Assembly (NCBI GenBank): GCA_029432815.1
Contig: JAROBA010000037.1
Location: 1-51,819, forward strand
DNA from: Pontiellaceae bacterium B1224
GTDB lineage: Bacteria; Verrucomicrobiota; Kiritimatiellia; Kiritimatiellales; Pontiellaceae
DNA length: 51,819 nucleotides
Reading direction: 5' to 3'
Shown: positions 11,869 to 43,836 of the stretch, piece by piece
Numbering within the stretch: the stretch's first letter is position 1
How the letters are laid out: each line of letters opens with the position of its first letter
Notes under the pieces: model-generated
The model's input: the letters and a program-made list of their open reading frames with translations, nothing else
Told to the model about the DNA's origin: nothing
The model's database searches: none
Program-made: the position numbers and the translations under genes

Positions 11869-13821
11869 CTATTCATAGCGCAGGGCGTCGATCGGGTTTA
11901 GGCGGGCGGCTTTTCGTGCGGGCCAGATTCCGAAGACGATGCCGATGATGGCGGAGAAGCCGAAGGCCATGTAAATGGATTCCTGCGTGAAGAGGACGGT
12001 CATTCCGCCAAACCGTTCGGCGAGATAGCCGACGCCGGCGCCTACCGCAATGCCCATGCACCCGCCAAAGAAACTGATGATCAGGGCCTCAATCAGGAAT
12101 TGCATCATGATGTCGTTGCGCCGGGCTCCCAGCGCCTTGCGCAGCCCGATCTCGCGCGTGCGTTCGGTGACGGAAACCAGCATAATGTTCATGATGCCGA
12201 TACCGCCCACCACCAGCGCAATGGAAGCAATACTGGAGAGCAGCAGCGACATAATCTTTCCGGTCGAAGAAACCGCATCCTGAATTTCGGCCAGATTGCG
12301 AATCTCAAAGGTGCCGCTTTCCACCCTGTGGCGTCGCTCAATGAGCGCCAGAATATCTTCCTGTGCGCGCTCCATCTGATGTGCCTCACCAATCTGAATT
12401 TCGAATCGTTCCACATAGTCCCGCCCGAACAGCCGGCGCATGGCGGTGGTGACCGGGACAAAAGCAGCATCGTCATAGTCGCGGAAGCCCCCGCTGCCCT
12501 TTTCCGGCAGCACACCGATGACGGTATAGGTGCGGCGGTTAATTTTAATCTTCTGGCCGATCGGATTCTGTCCGTCAAAAAGTTCCCGAACCGGCGTCAC
12601 GCCCAGCACACAGACCATTGCCCTGGATTCCACTTCTGCTTCGGTGAAGAATCTTCCGATCTGAGGGTGGTAGAAGCGCATATCTTCATAATCGGGATCC
12701 ACTCCCGTGACCCGACAGCTCCAGTTTTTATTACCGACTTTGAGCTGAACGGTTCCATCGATGGTCGCGCTGACCGCCACCACATTCTGAACCTCGTCAC
12801 GCACCGCCTTTCCATCGGCCAGCGACAGTCTTGAAGTTGTGCCCTGCGCCTGGGAAACACCCCCGCGGGACCGACGCTGGGGATAGAGCATCAACAGGTT
12901 GGAGCCCAGCTGGCTCATCTGCTCTTCGATAGCCGCCTTTGCACCATTGCCGACGGCTACCGTGGCAATCACTGCCGATACCCCGATCATGATTCCCAAA
13001 GCTGACAGGGCGGTACGGACCTTGTTTGCATTGAGCGAACGAAGGGACTGCTTAACCAGCGTCCATCCCTCAAGCAGGGAATGCAGACCAAACCCTTTCG
13101 GGGTTTGTTTTTCAATGTCTGCTTTTCCAACCTTTGGAACTTCCGGAGCATTCGGATTCGGCGCATCGGACAGGATTTTACCGTCGCGGATTTCGATGAT
13201 GCGCTGTGCATGGTTGGCGACATCGGAATCGTGTGTCACCAGAATGATGGTTAAGCCGCGCGCATGCAGCTCGCTCATGACCTGCATGATTTCTTCGGCA
13301 CTTTTTGAATCGAGGTTTCCGGTCGGTTCGTCGGCAAAAATGATGGCCGGGTTATTCACCAGCGACCGGGCAATCGCGACACGCTGCTGCTGACCGCCGG
13401 AGAGTTCGTTGGTGTGATGCGACTTACGGTCGCCCAGCCCGACCAGATCGAGCATTTCATTTGCAATATCAGATTTCTTCCCGTTGCGTGCATAGATCAG
13501 CGGCAGGCCGACATTCTCCAGTGCACTGGTCCGCTTGAGCAGATTAAACTGCTGAAAGACAAAACCCATGATGCGGTTTCTAAACTCCGCCAGCTGATTT
13601 TCGGAAAAGTTGGTCACATCGGTTCCGTCGATTTCAAATGTTCCATCGTCTGGAACATCCAATAATCCGAGAATATGCATGAGCGTGGATTTACCGGAGC
13701 CGGACGTGCCGATGATCGCGACATATTCACCCTGCTCTACCGTCAGGGACACCCCATCGAGCGCCTTTACCTCGATTTCGCCCATCTGATAGGTCTTACG
13801 TAGATTTTCAACCCGAATCAT
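11869..13821 (-). CDS. macB: MacB-type ABC transporter, ATPase-permease fusion
   Basis: At 650 residues this matches MacB (about 648). The N-terminal ATPase has Walker A GTSGSGKST, signature LSGGQQQR, Walker B IIFADEPTGNLD and H-loop VTHD. The C-terminal half has one membrane helix (residues about 270-290), a large periplasmic domain, then three helices after residue 520 (MSLLLSSIASIALVVGGIGIMNI onward), ending PARKAARLNPIDALRYE, the standard FtsX/MacB end. Type VII (mechanotransmission) transporters of this kind drive periplasmic export of drugs, peptides or lipids with MacA and TolC. The ATG overlaps the stop of the upstream fusion-protein gene by one base. The palindrome at 13125 lies in the linker (VPKVGK). 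Confidence 0.93.
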   Translation of the reverse strand: MIRVENLRKTYQMGEIEVKALDGVSLTVEQGEYVAIIGTSGSGKSTLMHILGLLDVPDDGTFEIDGTDVTNFSENQLAEFRNRIMGFVFQQFNLLKRTSALENVGLPLIYARNGKKSDIANEMLDLVGLGDRKSHHTNELSGGQQQRVAIARSLVNNPAIIFADEPTGNLDSKSAEEIMQVMSELHARGLTIILVTHDSDVANHAQRIIEIRDGKILSDAPNPNAPEVPKVGKADIEKQTPKGFGLHSLLEGWTLVKQSLRSLNANKVRTALSALGIMIGVSAVIATVAVGNGAKAAIEEQMSQLGSNLLMLYPQRRSRGGVSQAQGTTSRLSLADGKAVRDEVQNVVAVSATIDGTVQLKVGNKNWSCRVTGVDPDYEDMRFYHPQIGRFFTEAEVESRAMVCVLGVTPVRELFDGQNPIGQKIKINRRTYTVIGVLPEKGSGGFRDYDDAAFVPVTTAMRRLFGRDYVERFEIQIGEAHQMERAQEDILALIERRHRVESGTFEIRNLAEIQDAVSSTGKIMSLLLSSIASIALVVGGIGIMNIMLVSVTERTREIGLRKALGARRNDIMMQFLIEALIISFFGGCMGIAVGAGVGYLAERFGGMTVLFTQESIYMAFGFSAIIGIVFGIWPARKAARLNPIDALRYE

Positions 13822-14981
13822 TAACGCACTCTCCGGCTTACTGTTGGGGAGAACAGTCCCCCGCCGCCTTCCTTGCGAGCGCCGAGGTTCATGCGCTGAA
13901 TTAAAACCTCATCGCCTTCTGCGAGGCCTTCCAGGATTTCAGTATAGAACCCGTCGCTTACACCGACCTTAACGCTTTTCATCTCGGGGTTTTCCGGATC
14001 GTCCGAAGTAACGAGAACAAAGCTTTCAACCGGTGCACTGCCTGGACGTCCAGCACTTTTCTGCCCGCTCCCTTCTCCGCCCCCTGCGCCTCCCGGCCCA
14101 CCGCCCTGGGCGACCTGCTGCAGGCGCTCCTGGATTTCCGCATCGGAAAGGCCGCGTTCCTTCATCCGGTCAATCATCATTGATTTACGCTCATCTCCCG
14201 ACATGCTGGATGTGTCCGGCCGCGAGCCGACCTTCTGCTGGATGGCCGAAACCGGCAGCGTTAAAACGCCCATCTTTTCTTCCGCGATAAATTCAAGATT
14301 AGCCGTCATGCCGCTGCGCGCGAAACGCGGAAGCCGGTTGGCACGGACATCCACTTCATACATGGTGACATTACTTTCAACCTTGGCATCGTAGGCAATT
14401 TTTTCAACCACGCAGCCAAACTCCTCGTCCGGATAGGCTTCAAGGGAAACAAGAACCTGCTGATCGTTTTCAATCTGGCCGATGTCGGTTTCGTCGAGGT
14501 TGGCGACAATAATCAGGTCATCCGCAATCACCACCACCGAATCGGAAGAAGCAATGGACTGCCCCGGCTCAAAGTTGCGGGCGATAATGGTTCCTTCCAA
14601 TGGCGAAATCAGCGGTGAAGGTTTGTAGAGATCCGCCCAGTATTCATACTCATCTTTACTCGTGGCCAACGCGGCATCGAGCAGCGTGGCGCGTTCGGTT
14701 GAGCTGATCCAGCCGAGGATCTGGCCTTTTTTTACTGAGTTGCCTTCATCCACCATCAATTCTTCCAGGCGCCCGGCAATCGGCGGTTTTACATCGAGCC
14801 GGTTCCGCGGCTGCACCTCGCCGGTCGTTTCCACGGTGATGCGGATATCGCGCAGCTCAACTTTTTGAACGTCATACGACGGACCGGAGGCTTCGGCTCC
14901 TTTTGATTTGGATTTCTGCGTCCAGAAATAAATGCCGCCGCCGATTACGGCTAAAATGATAATCCACTTAATTTTCTTCAT
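13821..14981 (-). CDS. macA: MacA/HlyD-type periplasmic adaptor
   Basis: This 386-residue membrane-fusion protein is anchored by one N-terminal helix (residues about 5-20). The split lipoyl domain is visible as KPPIAGRLEELMVDEGNSVKKGQILG and SPLEGTIIARNFEPGQSI, followed by beta-barrel segments. Two features are unusual. The alpha-hairpin between the lipoyl halves is only about 30 residues, much shorter than in E. coli MacA. The membrane-proximal region contains an insertion (about 251-318) with a helical part and a glycine-rich tract. The start at 14981 has GGAG upstream. It is coupled to macB and lies one base after tolC's stop, so the three form an operon. Confidence 0.9.
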   Translation of the reverse strand: MKKIKWIIILAVIGGGIYFWTQKSKSKGAEASGPSYDVQKVELRDIRITVETTGEVQPRNRLDVKPPIAGRLEELMVDEGNSVKKGQILGWISSTERATLLDAALATSKDEYEYWADLYKPSPLISPLEGTIIARNFEPGQSIASSDSVVVIADDLIIVANLDETDIGQIENDQQVLVSLEAYPDEEFGCVVEKIAYDAKVESNVTMYEVDVRANRLPRFARSGMTANLEFIAEEKMGVLTLPVSAIQQKVGSRPDTSSMSGDERKSMMIDRMKERGLSDAEIQERLQQVAQGGGPGGAGGGEGSGQKSAGRPGSAPVESFVLVTSDDPENPEMKSVKVGVSDGFYTEILEGLAEGDEVLIQRMNLGARKEGGGGLFSPTVSRRVR

Positions 14982-14982
14982 G

Positions 14983-16254
14983 TTACTCACCCTTCTCCGT
15001 CGTCTGCCAAACACTCCAACCCAATGCATTTTTCCAGCGAGCCTGTTCCGTTTCCGAAGACCGCCGGCGCGTCAAATAGGTTTTCTCCAATGAAATCAGG
15101 TTACTTTCAATCAGATCCCAGTCCTCATACGAGAGCAGGCCCTGCTTGTATTTTGCCGTGGAAATTTCCGCACGCAACTGCTCCGCTTTCATCAGCTCAA
15201 GCTGAACCGCTTCGCTTTCAACCGCATCGATGTATGAATTCCATTGTTGCTGCAGCGTTGCCAGCAGTGTATTTGCCGTATTCAACAGGGCCATTTCCGA
15301 CTGAATAATGCCCTCCTTCGCTGCGGCCACATCGCTTTTAATCCGGTTACCGGTATAAATTGGAATACTGGCATTCAGCCCCACGTTCCAGCTGCTGTTA
15401 TAAACATCGTAATTACCGCTGTTGAGCCCGGTTGAAGCGCTAAACGAAATTTGCGGGAAGCGAGCGCTGCGCGTGATTTTCATACCTTCCTTCGAAGATT
15501 CAATCTGCGTGGTCGCAATGAGATAATCCGGGGTCTGCTTCATCAATGACGAAAGGTCCGCCAGTTTTTCCGGCGGCAAGGCCAGCAATTTACCCGATGC
15601 CCCTTGAGTCGGTTCCGGCACGCCCAATGCGGCGGCCAGGTTGCGCAAGGCATAGTTCAGCGACCGCTTGGCTTCGCGCACATCGTATTGAGCCTGCGAA
15701 AGCTGCGCCTTACTGCGCGCCAGGGAACCGGCATTTTCACGGCCGCCGTCGAAACGAAGCTGAATCAGGCGCAGGTTATTCGCTCTGCGCTCCTCGATTT
15801 TTTCGGTGAGCTTAATCGAATCCTGCGCATAGAGCACATCGATGTAGGCCAGACGGGTTCGCAATTCCACATCTGAAAGCGTCTGCCGATACTGCTCATT
15901 CCCCACGTCCAGCTTTGCAATGGCCTGTTTGCGTTTGGCCACGTTTCCGCCGCCACTGAACAGGTCCTGACTCAACGACAGACGCCCGCTTGCATTCTTC
16001 GTGTCACTAAAACTGTTCTGCGATTCAACCTGGCCGAACGAAGCCCCCGCCGAAGCACTCACCTGCGGCAGGAAAACCGAGGTGGCCGAAGACACGCCGT
16101 ACTCCAATGCGCGCACTGCAGCCCGTGCCGCTACCAGATCGGGATTATGCAGATGCGTCTGCTGGAGACACTGTTCCCAGGTAAGAAATTCGTTGGTTTG
16201 TGCCAGCACCGCCGATGCTGACAACAGGGCAATCATCAATAATCTGTTCTTCAT
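14983..16254 (-). CDS. TolC-family outer-membrane efflux channel
   Basis: This 423-residue protein has a signal peptide (MKNRLLMIALLSASAVLA) and the TolC duplicated helical architecture: LTWEQCLQQTHLHNPDLVAARAAVRALE at the start, later ERRANNLRLIQLRFDGGRENAGSLARSKAQL, and the second half PIYTGNRIKSDVAAAKEGI with KYKQGLLSYEDWDLIE. It is the outer-membrane partner for the adjacent MacA/MacB. GGAG is placed before the ATG at 16254. First gene of the operon; a one-mismatch palindrome lies upstream at 16334-16348. Confidence 0.92.
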   Translation of the reverse strand: MKNRLLMIALLSASAVLAQTNEFLTWEQCLQQTHLHNPDLVAARAAVRALEYGVSSATSVFLPQVSASAGASFGQVESQNSFSDTKNASGRLSLSQDLFSGGGNVAKRKQAIAKLDVGNEQYRQTLSDVELRTRLAYIDVLYAQDSIKLTEKIEERRANNLRLIQLRFDGGRENAGSLARSKAQLSQAQYDVREAKRSLNYALRNLAAALGVPEPTQGASGKLLALPPEKLADLSSLMKQTPDYLIATTQIESSKEGMKITRSARFPQISFSASTGLNSGNYDVYNSSWNVGLNASIPIYTGNRIKSDVAAAKEGIIQSEMALLNTANTLLATLQQQWNSYIDAVESEAVQLELMKAEQLRAEISTAKYKQGLLSYEDWDLIESNLISLEKTYLTRRRSSETEQARWKNALGWSVWQTTEKGE

Positions 16255-16333
16255 GAACTCTCCGTGCAAAACAACCAAACCTTAAAAGGGAAGGATTATT
16301 GCACGGATTTCAAATAAAAGTCCGTCACTTTTT

Positions 16334-33997: not shown

Positions 33998-36007
33998 TTA
34001 AAACTTCACTCGCATGCCGACCCGGAAACTCCGCCCGGAACCGGGATAAAAACCGCCGCTGTAGGCAGAAGTTGCATAGGTTTCGTCCAGCAGGTTTTGC
34101 ATAGAAACGATGATCTGAACATTTTTATTGATCATCATATCCGCCTGAAATCCAAGCAGTCCATAGGCATCCATTTTCCGCCAGACATTGTCAAAATCAT
34201 TGCCCTGATACTGCTCCGACACATAACTCCAAACCATTCCCAGCCGAAGCAGTTCAACCGGAGCCACCCAAACCTTGAAATTTCCATGCGCCCAGGGAAC
34301 CAGGGGAACTGTGTTTCCTTTGTAAGCCCCATCAGCAAACTCCGCCTGAACAAAATTCCAAACAGTTCCTGCGCCATACCAGCCGCGGTCCCATTGGAGC
34401 ATCGTTTCAAGTCCCAGCCGCTGCGTTTCACCCAAATTATAATTCAGCTTCTGAACATCGTCATAGGTAATTTCATTTTCCAGCATCAGATAAAAAGCGG
34501 TCAGCGAAGCATTCCAGTTTTTATGAGAATATTTTGCCCCGATCTCAAAGTTATTCCCCTGTTCCGGATCCAGATTTTCATTCAGCGGATCACTCAGAGG
34601 ATACCCCTGATACGCTGCGGCTTCATCCAGCGTCGGGTAGCGATACACCCGGTCGTAACCGGCAAAAACATTAAGGGGTTCCGAAAGCTGCCGGGCAATC
34701 GACAGTTCAGCCGCCCAGCCATACTTTTCCACCAGGCCGTCAAAAGAGGCATCCGGATCAATGTCCGGCGGTTGTTTATAGTCCGGATTCGGGAAGGACC
34801 CGATGAACGGCGGCAGCTGAGAAGCTTCATATTCCGTATACAGATTATCGGTCCCGGCATATTCGAACCGCGCCCCGCCGTTCAGAATCGTTTTATCAGA
34901 GAAGGCGTGTTGCGCAAAGAGATACGGGGCGGCCGTGATCCGGTTCAGCTCGGCCCAGGATTCAACGATCGTTCTGGCTTCATCATAATAGTTGTCCACA
35001 TCGAGCTGATCATAGAAGAAATCAAAGCCAGCCATGAAGAACCGGGATTCAGAACCGTAGCGCACCCGCGGTGCAAAGGAGAATCCAAGCTGATCGTTTT
35101 GTGCATATTGACCGCTGATGCTCGACTCCAGCCCCCGCATGTTTATGCCGGATAAAAACCGAGCGGCTCCCCACTCCCGCTCGGTCTCATAGAGCAGCGT
35201 GGCCAGACCGGCCGTACTATCTGATAACTGATCCCCGGGATTGCTGGATTGCGTCGGATCTTCCTGCATTTGGTCATACGAAATCGCGCCGGGAAACTGA
35301 TCCGAAGAATCACTGCCGGAAAGCCGGAAAGTGAGCACATCCGTATCGTTTAGAAACCATCCCGCACTCGTGTTGAAAGAGAGCGCACTGGATGATGAAT
35401 TCATTCGATACCCGTCATAGTCGGTGCCGCTGATTCCCAACGAAAAGTCAACATCGCCCAATGCATCCCCATAATTCAGCGACCCGTTCAAATATCCGAA
35501 ACTGCCGATGGCCCCCTCGAGTTGAAGGCCGGAATCGCCACCGCGCGTGGTGGTAATCTTCACCACGCCCGAAAGCGCATGGTTTCCGTAAAGGACATTC
35601 TGCCCGCCGCGAATCACTTCGATTTTATCAATGCTGCCCACAGGCAGACTCTGCCAGGCGATGGCCCCCATATCCGGACGATTCACCTTATGCCCATCCA
35701 CCAGCACCAGCACACGAACCTGGCTGTTTTCGCCGAACCCGCGCATCGACAACTGCCCGTCCGATGCATTGCCCCCCTGCCCGCGGACCAGCACGTTCGC
35801 TTCCGATTCCAAAAGTTCCGGGACCGATACAGCCCCCGATGATTCAATCGCGGCCCGATCAATCACCGTTACATCGGCAGCAATATCGACCTGCATGAGA
35901 TCCAGATTATCCAGCCGTGGCGCCGAAACAATGATGGCGCTGTTGCTTCCTGCAAACGCAGAAAGCACCCCCATCAAACATCCGGCCGTCCACCACTGAA
36001 TCCGCAT
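33998..36007 (-). CDS. btuB: TonB-dependent receptor, BtuB-like
   Basis: This outer-membrane receptor of 669 residues has a signal peptide (residues 1-19), then a plug domain: DVTVIDRAAIESSGAVSVPELLESEANVLVRGQ, MRGFGENSQVRVLVLVDGHKVNRPDMG, IDKIEVIRGGQNVLYGNHALSGVVKI. The beta-barrel follows, ending GRSFRVGMRVKF with a C-terminal Phe. AAGGAG lies before the ATG at 36007. The cobalamin riboswitch upstream of the operon identifies the substrate as a cobamide. No TonB box was confirmed, and TonB/ExbBD and the BtuCDF transporter are not in the window. Confidence 0.9.
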   Translation of the reverse strand: MRIQWWTAGCLMGVLSAFAGSNSAIIVSAPRLDNLDLMQVDIAADVTVIDRAAIESSGAVSVPELLESEANVLVRGQGGNASDGQLSMRGFGENSQVRVLVLVDGHKVNRPDMGAIAWQSLPVGSIDKIEVIRGGQNVLYGNHALSGVVKITTTRGGDSGLQLEGAIGSFGYLNGSLNYGDALGDVDFSLGISGTDYDGYRMNSSSSALSFNTSAGWFLNDTDVLTFRLSGSDSSDQFPGAISYDQMQEDPTQSSNPGDQLSDSTAGLATLLYETEREWGAARFLSGINMRGLESSISGQYAQNDQLGFSFAPRVRYGSESRFFMAGFDFFYDQLDVDNYYDEARTIVESWAELNRITAAPYLFAQHAFSDKTILNGGARFEYAGTDNLYTEYEASQLPPFIGSFPNPDYKQPPDIDPDASFDGLVEKYGWAAELSIARQLSEPLNVFAGYDRVYRYPTLDEAAAYQGYPLSDPLNENLDPEQGNNFEIGAKYSHKNWNASLTAFYLMLENEITYDDVQKLNYNLGETQRLGLETMLQWDRGWYGAGTVWNFVQAEFADGAYKGNTVPLVPWAHGNFKVWVAPVELLRLGMVWSYVSEQYQGNDFDNVWRKMDAYGLLGFQADMMINKNVQIIVSMQNLLDETYATSAYSGGFYPGSGRSFRVGMRVKF

Positions 36008-36019
36008 CGAACCGGCTCC

Positions 36020-36799
36020 TTACCCTCGGAAAAAATAGCTGCGCCGACGGCGGAACCACAACACTCCGGCAAAACCACCCGCCGCAAGAATCGCCGTTGA
36101 CGGCTCGGGAACGGCAGCCACGGTCAGCTCATCCATCGCAAAATAGGTCGGTTTATAGGCCGCAGTTGACGAAAAATTAAATTCCAGCGATTTCACCGTT
36201 GAACCCAGCGATTCCAGTTCAACATAGGTCCACTCATCAACAATCTTACCCGTTTCTCCTGTGTAATCGGCCAGGTCCAGGGTTTGAGTCCCCAGTAAAT
36301 TATCACTGCTGTCATACGCATGCACGGACAGCGTAAAAACATCATTACTGGCCGTATTGAATGCGCGGCTGAAGCCATCGCCGTCCCTGATCGACAGAGC
36401 TCCATAGGTTGTATTGTTCGCATAAAAACCGCGGACCGTGGTCGCAACCGGAAGTATGACTGACCGGCTCGCGGTGTAGGGCTGATAGAAAACCCCATAC
36501 GAACCGTTTCCGCTTACATCCGTACCGGAACCGTCAGCATATACTGCATACTGATTCCCATATCCCGGCGTGGTCGTATCATCCACACTGGAATAAACCA
36601 TCCCGTCCCAGGATGTAGAGCCGCCGCCCCAGTCGGTGAAAGAATGAGTAAACGTGATTCCCGATTGCTCCCAGTTCACCTGAGGCACCACATAGGTGTT
36701 ATTGCCGCTTGTACTCAATCCATCAAAATCGACCGTGACATCAGCCATTGTCGTCGCAGCAACGGCCGCACAGCCGGTAATCATCCATAGTTTCTTCAT
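36020..36799 (-). CDS. DUF4465 PEP-CTERM protein, BtuH-like
   Basis: The 259-residue exported protein has a signal peptide (residues 1-19). The core reads TVDFDGLSTSGNN, WEQSGITFTHSFTDWGGGSTSWDGMVYSSVDDTTTPGYGNQYAVYADGSG, then ADYTGE, WTYVELESLG and KSLEFNFSST. This is the DUF4465 pattern; from memory the family includes the Bacteroides surface proteins BtuH that bind B12. In place of a lipobox it ends with a PEP-CTERM anchor (VPEPSTAILAAGGFAGVLWFRRRRSYFFRG). AAGGAAA precedes the ATG. First gene behind the riboswitch, so a role in capturing cobamides is likely. Confidence 0.83.
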   Translation of the reverse strand: MKKLWMITGCAAVAATTMADVTVDFDGLSTSGNNTYVVPQVNWEQSGITFTHSFTDWGGGSTSWDGMVYSSVDDTTTPGYGNQYAVYADGSGTDVSGNGSYGVFYQPYTASRSVILPVATTVRGFYANNTTYGALSIRDGDGFSRAFNTASNDVFTLSVHAYDSSDNLLGTQTLDLADYTGETGKIVDEWTYVELESLGSTVKSLEFNFSSTAAYKPTYFAMDELTVAAVPEPSTAILAAGGFAGVLWFRRRRSYFFRG

Positions 36800-40060: not shown

Positions 40061-41272
40061 CTATTGCGCCAAGGTGCCGATCTCTTCGGCGAGGTCGACG
40101 GCAATCTGCTCTTTGTTGCAAAGCGAGCGGGTCGTCTGCAGCGAGACATCGAGAATGCGTTCCCGTACCAGAAGCAGATCGCGCAGCTCTTCAAGCCGAC
40201 CGGTATCCATGGTTTTAAGATCCGCATCCAGTTTCAGAAGCAAGGGTTTGATCCGTTCCGAACGTTCGGAAGCCTGCGTATAGTATGCATCCGCCGAGTT
40301 TAACAGCACCCGGAGGCGGTCGGCAATCAGACGGCGCTGCAGGTCCATCACCGACAACGAGAGGGCCTGCTGCTGTTGATAGACCGCGATGTCCGGATTG
40401 CGCGTTCCCCACGGCAAAACAAATGAGGCAGAAAGGCCAAACGACGTTTCACCGTTGTCGTAGTCCACTTCAACATCGGGTTGTATATATTTCAGGCGGA
40501 ACCCATCTTCGGAACGGGCTACGGCTTCAGCGGCAGAGGTTGAACGGGCCTGAGCGCTGTAGAGCTGATAGTCGGACCGATTTTGCAGGGCCTGCTGAAA
40601 CAGCAGTTCAAAATCCGTTTTTTGCGGCATGGGAATCAGCGCCGTCTTGGCCATGTCCTCAAGATTGGCCGTGGGGCCCACCAGCAAATGAAGCTCCTGC
40701 CGGATTTCCAGCAGATCGCTGCTCACTTTTTCCTGGCTGTTCACCAGATCCAGATAGACGCTGTAGAGTTTGGCACGGTCCGTTACGGACAGCTGATTAA
40801 GCTCCACCTCAAGGTTTGCTTTTTCCAGATAGGGTTCCAGTGCATTCAATTCATTCTGATAAATTTCAAGCTGACTGTTGAGCATACGATATTCACAGAA
40901 GCCCCGATAGACATCCATCAGGTCCAGCCATTCCAGCGCGGAAACCCGAAGCTGCTCCTCTTGAGCAACCAGAGCCAACTGTTCGCGCAGCTTGGATTTA
41001 TTCCAACTGGACGGCAGGTAGATGCGGAGCGCCGCTCCCACTTCACTGTCGGTGACGCGTGGGCGCAGTTCCAACCCATATTCCGAACGGCTTTGCGCAG
41101 ATGCACGTGCCTGCTCGACCGCAATGGAGTCCTCAATCAGCACCCCTTCGGACCGGCCTTTAACGGCGGCGCTCAAATCGCCTTTCCGCATGAGCTCATC
41201 TAAATCTTCGGACGCAAGGGCGCCCGCAGCAAACACCATCGGAAACAATACGACTTTCCAACAGCCACGCAT
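40061..41272 (-). CDS. TolC-family outer-membrane channel of the VTC operon
   Basis: The 403-residue protein has a signal peptide (residues 1-20) and long helical segments typical of outer-membrane efflux proteins: SIAVEQARASAQSRSEYGLELRPRV at the start, LNALEPYLEKANLEVELNQLSVTDRAKLYSVYLDLVNSQEKV, then the second repeat FQQALQNRSDYQLYSAQARSTSAAEAVARS and SFVLPWGTRNPDIAVYQQQQ. It starts one base into the stop of the HlyD-like gene (TAATG), so the two are coupled. Probable exit channel of a trans-envelope machine. Confidence 0.88.
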   Translation of the reverse strand: MRGCWKVVLFPMVFAAGALASEDLDELMRKGDLSAAVKGRSEGVLIEDSIAVEQARASAQSRSEYGLELRPRVTDSEVGAALRIYLPSSWNKSKLREQLALVAQEEQLRVSALEWLDLMDVYRGFCEYRMLNSQLEIYQNELNALEPYLEKANLEVELNQLSVTDRAKLYSVYLDLVNSQEKVSSDLLEIRQELHLLVGPTANLEDMAKTALIPMPQKTDFELLFQQALQNRSDYQLYSAQARSTSAAEAVARSEDGFRLKYIQPDVEVDYDNGETSFGLSASFVLPWGTRNPDIAVYQQQQALSLSVMDLQRRLIADRLRVLLNSADAYYTQASERSERIKPLLLKLDADLKTMDTGRLEELRDLLLVRERILDVSLQTTRSLCNKEQIAVDLAEEIGTLAQ

Positions 41273-42288
41273 TATCGTTTCCCCATCCATTGATCCAGAA
41301 TTGAAATATCCGGCACGACCACGACCTGTTCACCGGGAACCAGTTCGATGCCCTCATCCAGCTCGATCACGATGCGGCGGCCACGCAGAATCTGGTCGCC
41401 GAATCCCGTAAAGACCGGCAGCTTCCGGATATCGGCAGTAACCGTTTTAACAACCCCGTGATACACTTCGCGGCTGGCGGATGCGATGACGCGGCAGCGT
41501 TCACCTTCGGCGATATCCATGCGCTTTTCCTCCGGCATGAATGCAATAATGCGGGAGGTGGAAACATTGCTGATGCGAATGACCGGATCTCCGGTTTCCA
41601 CCACATCGCCGGGCTGGTGCAGCACTTCAGCCACCACCCCCGCCGTTTGCACCACGAGCCGGCACTGCGCCACCTGCAGCTCTTTAAGCTCATTCGAATT
41701 AAACAACTGTGTTTCCTCTTCCAGAATACTGAGTCGTTCCTCCAGCTGGGCAATGAGCCTGGGGTAGTGAGACAGCACATCTTTGGTGGCTTCAATCTGC
41801 GGTCGAATGTCCTCCACATCCTGTTCGAGGATCAGATTCTTTGCGCGCAGCTCTTCGGTACGCGCCCACTGCCCTTCGAGCGCCCGCAGCTCGGCCGCCG
41901 TTTTGGCCTCTTCCAGCCGTAGATTTTCAACATCGTACCGGATGGATTGCACCTTATCTCTGGTCTTCATGAGCGATGCCTGGTCCATCAGCAGTTCCGT
42001 GGCCAAGGACTGGTTATCCAGCTCGCCGATCAGCTGCCCGGCATATACCGCATCGCCCAGATTCACGTTAAGCGAAATCAGACGTCCGCTTTCCAGCGGC
42101 GAGACATATTCATAGGTGCGTTCGGCCACCCCGTAGAAACGGATACGGTTCATTCCGCCCGGCAGCAAGAGCAGTACAGCAAGGGCCGCACAGATCCAGA
42201 TGATCCAGGGCCAGCCGTTAAACATTTGGCGAATCAGGTGCCGCCGGCGATGACGCAGCGCAGGACGTTTAAAAGTTTTGTCAGTCAT
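41272..42288 (-). CDS. HlyD-type adaptor of the VTC operon
   Basis: This 338-residue membrane-fusion protein has one N-terminal membrane helix (about 27-45) after a very basic cytosolic tail (RHRRRHLIR). It carries the lipoyl half SPLESGRLISLNVNLGDAVYAGQLIGEL, a long coiled-coil (about 95-205), then VQTAGVVAEVLHQPGDVVETGDPVI and a beta-barrel end. It is coupled to the TolC-like gene, and follows DUF4956. There is no ABC, RND or MFS gene in the operon, so its inner-membrane partner would have to be DUF4956 or a separately encoded protein. Confidence 0.9.
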   Translation of the reverse strand: MTDKTFKRPALRHRRRHLIRQMFNGWPWIIWICAALAVLLLLPGGMNRIRFYGVAERTYEYVSPLESGRLISLNVNLGDAVYAGQLIGELDNQSLATELLMDQASLMKTRDKVQSIRYDVENLRLEEAKTAAELRALEGQWARTEELRAKNLILEQDVEDIRPQIEATKDVLSHYPRLIAQLEERLSILEEETQLFNSNELKELQVAQCRLVVQTAGVVAEVLHQPGDVVETGDPVIRISNVSTSRIIAFMPEEKRMDIAEGERCRVIASASREVYHGVVKTVTADIRKLPVFTGFGDQILRGRRIVIELDEGIELVPGEQVVVVPDISILDQWMGKR

Positions 42289-42301
42289 TGGAAACGTCCT
42301 C

Positions 42302-43000
42302 TTAAAGTTCAACCGTTGTACGCTGCATCACCAGATTCACTTCAGAAATGGGGTCGAGCGCTTCGAGTTTTTTCACGAGATCTACCTGATAGGACGGATC
42401 AACCAGACGGACCTGATAGGAATATTCCAGCAGATCGCCCTGCACCGCTTCTCGCATGGCGAGCAGCATATAGGAGGAGCAGCATTCTGCCATGATCGCA
42501 TCAACGTCTCCGCGGGCGCTGTCGTTGTCGGCCTCAACCAGAAAACGCAGCATGGCTTCGTAGCGGCGATGCGTGGCAAACGGAGCCCAGTGCAGCAGTA
42601 CGATTACGGAACTCAGCAGGGCACATCCTGTGATCGCAACGGCAAACATGCCGGCTCCGCAGGCGATCCCCAAACCGAGGGCCGCAAACAGAAACATCAT
42701 ATCGCGCGGATCACGAACCACCGTTCTGAAACGAATCAGCGACAGAGCGCCCAGCACCCCGATGCCGCGTGCCAGACTGTCGCCCATCGACATCATCACC
42801 ATGCACGTGATCATACCGCCGAGAATCAGCGTGTGCACGAACGAGCGTGAATAGGAGAGCGACTGAAACGTCACCTGATAAAGCTTCGCTACTACAGAAC
42901 ACAAAACAAAACTAAGCAACATGGCCGAAATCACATGCTGCAGGCTCATACTCTGCGAACTTCCTGCCGCAGAAATTAAGTCAACCCAACCACCATTCAT
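42302..43000 (-). CDS. DUF4956 membrane protein
   Basis: The 232-residue protein has four or five membrane helices in the first 140 residues and the family signature GALSLIRFRTVVRDPRDMMFLFAALGLGIACG. The C-terminal 100 residues are soluble (FLVEADNDSARGDVDAIMAECC, SYQVRLVDPSYQVDLVKKLEALDPISEVNL). DUF4956 genes often sit beside VTC-domain genes. AGGAG precedes the ATG. The role is not known; a membrane scaffold or conduit for the VTC enzyme's product is a fair guess. Confidence 0.88.
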   Translation of the reverse strand: MNGGWVDLISAAGSSQSMSLQHVISAMLLSFVLCSVVAKLYQVTFQSLSYSRSFVHTLILGGMITCMVMMSMGDSLARGIGVLGALSLIRFRTVVRDPRDMMFLFAALGLGIACGAGMFAVAITGCALLSSVIVLLHWAPFATHRRYEAMLRFLVEADNDSARGDVDAIMAECCSSYMLLAMREAVQGDLLEYSYQVRLVDPSYQVDLVKKLEALDPISEVNLVMQRTTVEL

Positions 43001-43011
43001 ATCTATCTCCT

Positions 43012-43836
43012 CTAAAATTGTATAAATTCATCGGCAAACGGAGCTTCCCCTTTGCCGGTTAAGCAGTTTTCCATCCAGATCGCGGTGGAATATTTACAGT
43101 TTCCGCAACGCACCAGGCTGAATGTCTGCACAAGCTCGATCATCCAGGTGGGCACCTGTTCCGTACACTTGATCTCCAGCACCAATGAAGACTCGCGGCG
43201 GTTGCGTACTAATCCGCTGTCCATCGAAATAAACCGACCGCCTTCGCCCCAGCCATACATATCGGTAACCGGTTGATAGCAAAGTTTCGAATCAAACGTT
43301 ACCCGGGCATAGTGATCAAAGATTCCGGTATACGCTTCGCGTGAATAGCGAATATAGACCAACGGCCGCGCGTCGATCTCCTCGGACAATCGTACAAACT
43401 CCCGAAAGGCCTCGCGCTCTTTCACCGATTTGAGATTCAGTTCATCAACATGCTTTTTCAGCACGCCCGGCTTCCACTGATCAAATGAAATACAGGCGCG
43501 CGATTTGATCACCCGTTCAAAATATTTCCGCTTAATCTCCATGAAAACCGGAGCTTTCCCCGGCTGAAGACCGTACGTCCGGACCCGAAGTTTAAAACGA
43601 TGCGACGCCTCCCACTCCTTGGCATAGTGGAGGGATAGCGTAGGGGAATCCATCTGAAGCGTGTTAATGGTATAGTGACCTCCCGCTGCCTCACAATGCT
43701 TATCCATGACGCAATACGGACGAATGAAAGCCTTGATCGGTTCCACCAGTTCGCGCGGGATGATGTACTTTGCCTCGAAGCGGTCCAGCTCCGTTGTAAA
43801 GTCGCCCCCCATAGGTTGCTTTTGCTTGGTCGTCAT
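43012..43836 (-). CDS. VTC-domain protein (polyphosphate polymerase fold)
   Basis: The 274-residue cytosolic protein shows the VTC tunnel strands: LDRFEAKYIIP (18-27), HYTINTLQMDSP (54-65), RFKLRVRTYG (80-89), PVFMEIKRKYFERVIKSR (97-113), PLVYIRYSREAY, ARVTFDSKL and SLVLEIKCTEQVPTWMIELVQ. The basic tunnel residues and the acidic metal ligands (E in MEIK, E in LEIK) are conserved, so it may polymerise ATP gamma-phosphate into polyphosphate. Bacterial VTC proteins are mostly not characterised. First gene of a four-gene operon. No strong ribosome site is seen. Confidence 0.88.
   Translation of the reverse strand: MTTKQKQPMGGDFTTELDRFEAKYIIPRELVEPIKAFIRPYCVMDKHCEAAGGHYTINTLQMDSPTLSLHYAKEWEASHRFKLRVRTYGLQPGKAPVFMEIKRKYFERVIKSRACISFDQWKPGVLKKHVDELNLKSVKEREAFREFVRLSEEIDARPLVYIRYSREAYTGIFDHYARVTFDSKLCYQPVTDMYGWGEGGRFISMDSGLVRNRRESSLVLEIKCTEQVPTWMIELVQTFSLVRCGNCKYSTAIWMENCLTGKGEAPFADEFIQF

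Follow-up and report, generated by a model that had tools for sequence, protein, structure and literature searches.

The window analysed here is a stretch of 51,819 nucleotides of Pontiellaceae bacterium B1224 (contig JAROBA010000037.1, positions 1 to 51,819). On its minus strand, from 43836 to 40061, four open reading frames (ORFs) lie head to tail in the order VTC-DUF4956-HlyD-OEP, where OEP denotes an outer-membrane efflux protein (Table 1). The host genome measures 5.4 Mb, is 97% complete and has its nearest named relatives in the Pontiellaceae, with Pontiella sulfatireligans (Kiritimatiellales), a species in which the operon is present as well. An earlier note on this DNA had read the four genes as a possible machine for making and exporting polyphosphate. 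Their presence at this place was confirmed, Pfam naming three of them and profile comparison the fourth. The start of the HlyD gene had to be corrected from TTG 42312 to ATG 42288, as the latter has a GAGGA motif just upstream and the resulting 338 residues match the orthologues.

Table 1. Features of the four-gene operon in the window.
Feature	Coordinates	Strand	Evidence and predicted role
VTC / triphosphate-tunnel protein, 274 aa	43012..43836	-	Pfam VTC 1.8e-31; predicted cytosolic polyphosphate polymerase
DUF4956 protein, 232 aa	42302..43000	-	Pfam DUF4956 5.8e-12; predicted inner-membrane translocation part, ACT-like C-terminal domain
HlyD/EmrA-type membrane fusion protein, 338 aa	41272..42288	-	Pfam HlyD_3 1.4e-9, HlyD_D23 5.6e-8
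Divergent TolC-like outer-membrane efflux protein (OEP), 403 aa	40061..41272	-	hhalign to sister OEPs; signal-peptide-like N-terminus

The intergenic gaps are short, with 11 nucleotides between VTC and DUF4956 and 13 between DUF4956 and HlyD, and the OEP start lies on the HlyD stop (TAATG, 41274-41270). This last junction is the sole overlapping one, so that the overlapping stops and starts from which a single transcript had been argued are reduced to one case. Nevertheless one transcript is still likely, because the annotated genes on both sides lie on the opposite strand and the gaps are also short in the orthologous operons (medians of 14, 5 and -4 nucleotides along VTC-DUF4956-HlyD-OEP). 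A promoter and terminator scan gave chance-level signal only.

Conservation was followed in two samples. The first, an unbiased survey, consisted of a Pfam search for DUF4956 over 289 genomes of the phylum; DUF4956 was present in 56 of these, and 62 loci were usable for a tree. The second consisted of 80 close-relative loci found with an alignment from HlyD-type operons, for which reason its HlyD rate (76 of 79) is biased and the unbiased figure is 30 of 62. At the 79 close-relative loci VTC precedes DUF4956 in every case, HlyD follows in 76, and OEP comes next in at least 57. Three of the OEP absences are contig ends, and the rest are maybe due to shadow ORFs in GC-rich genomes or to OEPs too divergent for the profiles. 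The complete order recurs in Kiritimatiellia, Verrucomicrobiia and Opitutae. With this order and spacing repeated in dozens of genomes, the four-gene arrangement is not due to chance, and the co-occurrence check suggested in the earlier note yielded a conserved, tightly spaced unit.

Reading of the four genes detected no ATP-binding cassette (ABC), major facilitator superfamily (MFS) or resistance-nodulation-division (RND) pump in the operon, as had been noted before. Among 75 proteins flanking the relatives' operons no Pfam family occurred more than twice and no pump family recurred, so that no pump belongs to the operon unit; CotH, treated below, is the one exception among the neighbours.

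Important insight can be gained from the exchange of partners around the VTC-DUF4956 pair. In the survey, HlyD directly follows DUF4956 at 30 loci, CotH lies near it at 21, a Porin_O_P gene directly follows at 6, and 5 loci have none of these. The partner type tracks the DUF4956 tree, with 8 changes compared to a mean of 27 after shuffling. In the porin-type operons (L076, L078, L080, L081, L082 and L083) the genes are joined by 4-nucleotide overlaps or short gaps and the porin, of the 'phosphate-selective porin O and P' type, replaces HlyD-OEP. All three kinds of DUF4956 partner (HlyD-OEP, phosphate-type porin and CotH) act beyond the inner membrane. Apparent VTC-DUF4956 fusions (ORFs of 435-683 residues) were rejected, the extra length being merely an open frame upstream.

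Outside the phylum, a Planococcus plasmid carries polymerase-DUF4956-CotH in a locus that runs on into a glycosyltransferase, and in Bacteroides thetaiotaomicron BT3498-99, both members of one iron-responsive set, correspond to DUF4956 and DUF2490. On a replicon of Hymenobacter volaticus, a member of the Bacteroidota, DUF4956 is followed by a TolC-family gene (L188, 4766-8006); there, the 359-residue protein preceding DUF4956 matched nothing in Pfam and may be a divergent enzyme.

It could be asked whether HlyD and OEP simply share an operon with the other two genes and serve an unrelated pump encoded elsewhere. OEPs are often shared, and further pumps, MacAB among them, are encoded in the genome. 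However, the genes are co-linear with near-zero spacing across classes, and the partner type is stable along the DUF4956 phylogeny; for these two reasons we consider a separate pump very improbable. In addition, the window itself holds a complete set of MacB (ABC), MacA-type HlyD and TolC/OEP (11869-16278, minus strand), so that the pump-dependent exporter in the window carries its own adaptor and duct.

In the case of the VTC protein, the Pfam match scores 110 bits against a gathering cut-off of 23. A single-sequence phmmer search of the PDB returned nothing and a family profile was needed; the profile of 47 bacterial VTC homologues gave yeast Vtc4 as its top match (6e-24) and matched no CYTH enzyme. 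The AlphaFold model (predicted local distance difference test, pLDDT, 89) shows an 8-strand tunnel with a C-terminal helix. It superposes on the Vtc4 structure 3g3r with Z 21.7 over 238 residues, and overall reaches Z 18-22 with Vtc2/3/4 compared to at most 13.6 with CYTH phosphatases and cyclases. At the residue level, K200, R264, R266, K281, K294, R361, E426, K428 and K458 of Vtc4 are identical in all 47 homologues of the alignment and R373 is retained in 46, whereas R253 is replaced by Lys in the window protein. Vtc4 K428 and K458, both invariant, correspond to K223 and K248 of the window.

Polymerases and phosphatases of this fold have been told apart by the residues close to the substrate, basic in the former and acidic in the latter, and by the part played by K458: it was called catalytic in the polymerase, while mutation of the equivalent residue of the phosphatase AtTTM3 changes little (PMC4641920). 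At the acidic-patch positions of the window protein, K223 is basic as in Vtc4, R19 corresponds to Vtc4 R196 and Glu21 is acidic; one patch position was unmappable. Judged by alignment and model, the VTC domain of the window appears capable of catalysis and resembles Vtc4 more than the phosphatases, with polymerase-like residues at most distinguishing positions and one acidic-patch-like Glu retained.

DUF4956 is the best conserved part of the operon, with 34-93% identity to the window copy across 71 homologues and a Pfam match of 46.1 bits against a gathering score of 30.6. Its model (pLDDT 83, predicted template modelling score 0.63) consists of five membrane-length helices followed by a ferredoxin/ACT-like domain. 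Six arginines (R52, R78, R90, R92, R96 and R99) are invariant in 72 sequences, and the conserved arginine motifs read YSR and RFRTxxRDPRD. If the ACT-like domain is cytosolic, the model would place all of these arginines except R78 at the cytosolic mouth. Such conserved arginines suit a polyanion.

Structural comparison of the DUF4956 model by Foldseek and VIA-align covered the ACT-like domain alone (NikR, S6 and ACT proteins), not the membrane part. C-terminal domains of MgtC appeared at Foldseek ranks 18 and 24. MgtC / SapB proteins share with DUF4956 the layout of membrane helices with an ACT-like domain behind them, and there is weak sequence similarity; unlike them, DUF4956 stays below the MgtC cut-offs (20.2 against 31.4 bits in Pfam, 15.6 against 255 in NCBIfam), has other conserved motifs and is paired with VTC. 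A search for MgtC genes in the relatives gave sub-threshold matches only, at least two of which were DUF4956 genes. In one genome (L058 / L118) DUF4956 is broken into ORFs of 90 and 132 residues with intact neighbours, which is either a frameshift or an assembly error; the HlyD ORF is broken in a similar way in L050/L132 and L091/L130.

The HlyD family profile finds EmrA as its closest PDB relative (2.3e-28). The protein is laid out as a basic N-terminal tail, one transmembrane helix and two barrel-sandwich halves around a helical hairpin. The very basic cytosolic tail pointed out in the earlier note is real and conserved: its net charge is +7 over about 26 residues in the window, with a median of +6 (range -1 to +9) in 36 orthologues. 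The tail fits an anionic cargo, but ordinary positive-inside topology could explain it. For the fourth ORF neither Pfam nor NCBIfam gave a match, and its profile found no relative in the PDB by sequence. As the profile of its family aligns to the Pfam-OEP proteins that stand at the same place in sister operons (hhalign probability 99.3%, E 2.9e-20, 325 columns), we assign it by profile comparison as a divergent OEP-family (TolC-like) protein, and in this sense the previously named TolC channel was recovered. Compared to EmrAB-TolC and MacAB-TolC, the operon has the adaptor and the outer-membrane duct in common, but DUF4956 and the polymerase-like enzyme occupy the inner-membrane position of the MFS, ABC or RND pump.

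The pairing of VTC with DUF4956, usually together with CotH, is already known. VTC-DUF4956-CotH associations have been published in Gram-positive bacteria without a function (PMC7112168, PMC2879425). These VTC(PPP)-DUF4956-CotH clusters, among them the pel accessory genes and NELoc-2 of C. perfringens, have the VTC-DUF4956 core in common with the window operon, but contain CotH and lack HlyD/OEP. In the literature searched, few papers mention DUF4956, none names both DUF4956 and VTC and none treats the HlyD-OEP version, which appears to be undescribed.

CotH is also found around the HlyD-type loci. It directly adjoins the operon at 25 of the 79 close-relative loci, and 29 CotH genes occur in 0.93 Mb around these loci, compared to about 2.6 per Mb in the host genome and some 1 per Mb in related genomes that carry CotH. 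In some close relatives (L049:4195-8952, L108, L112 and L118) a very large CotH protein of 1585-1767 residues, with lamin-tail domains in the case of L049, is encoded directly upstream of VTC; the window copy is without it. The host genome contains PPK1, two VTC genes, two DUF4956 genes and 14 CotH genes. Its second DUF4956-VTC pair (contig C136:46509-49612, locus L069) has the reversed gene order, is followed by the gene of a 580-residue CotH kinase and belongs to another lineage of this module.

These observations bear on the idea that VTC-DUF4956 sends out polyphosphate as a phosphate donor, with which CotH-family kinases would phosphorylate surface proteins where ATP is scarce, HlyD-OEP carrying the donor to the surface of diderms. 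The CotH arrangement is the main alternative one in the survey as well as the published Gram-positive one, CotH adjoins HlyD-type operons far above its genome density, and one of the host's CotH genes comes right after the second VTC-DUF4956 pair. Against this, neither the neighbours of the window operon as read nor Pfam revealed a CotH gene beside it, porin-type operons are without CotH, and the activity reported for CotH is that of a protein kinase, polyphosphate as its donor being absent from the literature found. Altogether we regard a donor supply as unlikely. The full form of the idea, in which exported polyphosphate is the actual donor of secreted CotH kinases and permits extracellular phosphorylation without ATP, seems less likely again.

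A further possibility is that the phosphate chain serves a glycan of the envelope or matrix, either by attachment to an exopolysaccharide or by regulating it. VTC-DUF4956-CotH adjoins Gram-positive pel clusters (PMC7112168), and the Planococcus locus extends into a glycosyltransferase; as genes for glycan synthesis do not recur around the HlyD-type operon, this link with a glycan is considered rather improbable.

We return to polyphosphate export. Because the VTC-DUF4956 core is constant and its exchanged partners all act beyond the inner membrane, we hypothesize that the pair is an outward-delivering synthase-translocase; the type of enzyme makes polyphosphate the most likely polymer. The operon as a whole would then be a synthesis-coupled polyphosphate exporter across both membranes, for which we estimate a probability of about 0.5. 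In detail, the phosphate chain would leave the VTC tunnel along basic residues and enter a DUF4956 pore whose cytosolic mouth may be lined by the invariant arginines, while the ACT-like domain would dock or regulate the enzyme. The adaptor and the TolC-like protein would form the periplasmic and outer-membrane duct, and polymerisation itself would drive the chain outward, so that no ABC, RND or MFS pump would be needed. The outlet would be HlyD-OEP or a phosphate-type porin in diderms of the phylum; in others it is the CotH kinase that was recorded as partner.

The yeast VTC complex (Vtc1/Vtc3/Vtc4), a polyphosphate polymerase-translocase, couples cytosolic synthesis to transit through an Arg/Lys-lined channel (PMC9911596) and is a direct precedent. 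It has the same tunnel fold, nearly the same active site and likewise an enzyme with a membrane protein bearing conserved basic residues. Compared to it, the window system has no SPX domain, DUF4956 takes the place of the three-helix VTC1-type channel, a periplasmic adaptor and an outer-membrane duct are added, and the presumed target is the cell exterior, not the vacuole.

The acidic-polymer export machine proposed in the earlier note is partly supported, by the conserved unit, the Vtc4-like active site, the DUF4956 arginines, the lack of a pump and the outward partners; that the enzyme polymerises, that its product is a chain, and the pore, topology, complex and direction of transport are what we infer. 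Several observations weigh against such an exporter. Sequence comparison linked DUF4956 to nothing in the PDB, and the one family to which its sequence is weakly related, MgtC, is not known as a polyanion channel. The literature searched contained no report of activity for any bacterial VTC. CotH-type operons retain VTC-DUF4956 without any duct, and the duct is therefore not essential to the core. The host carries an ordinary PPK1 and thus has a polyphosphate enzyme besides VTC. Finally, Vtc4 T198 is replaced by an invariant Glu (Glu21 of the window) and K455 by Gly; our alignment places Glu21 at Glu-4 of the acidic patch that triphosphate tunnel metalloenzyme (TTM) phosphatases have, and hydrolase activity is possible.

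This last point leads to the alternative that VTC is a triphosphatase or regulator and acts as energiser or sensor, while DUF4956-HlyD-OEP exports another substrate, either a small molecule or a protein. Besides Glu21 and the lost K455, the EmrA-like adaptor, which belongs to a drug-efflux class, would agree with this. However, K248 and K223 are invariant, the fold is clearly Vtc4-like and DUF4956 pairs with phosphate-type porins too, which makes this alternative doubtful, about as much as the donor supply.

If polyphosphate export through this operon is true, it would provide the polymer with a route through both membranes, assign a function to VTC and DUF4956, two families widespread in bacteria, and offer a handle on the role of the associated CotH kinases; the tripartite envelope duct would be powered by polymer synthesis and not by a pump. 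To our knowledge, no dedicated bacterial polyphosphate export machine is known. Polyphosphate has been described on the exterior of some bacteria, for example in the gonococcal pseudo-capsule (PMC10237660).

Elsewhere in the window (33998-36799, minus strand), a PEP-CTERM-tagged DUF4465 protein is followed by a TonB-dependent receptor, likely a surface-protein/uptake pair.

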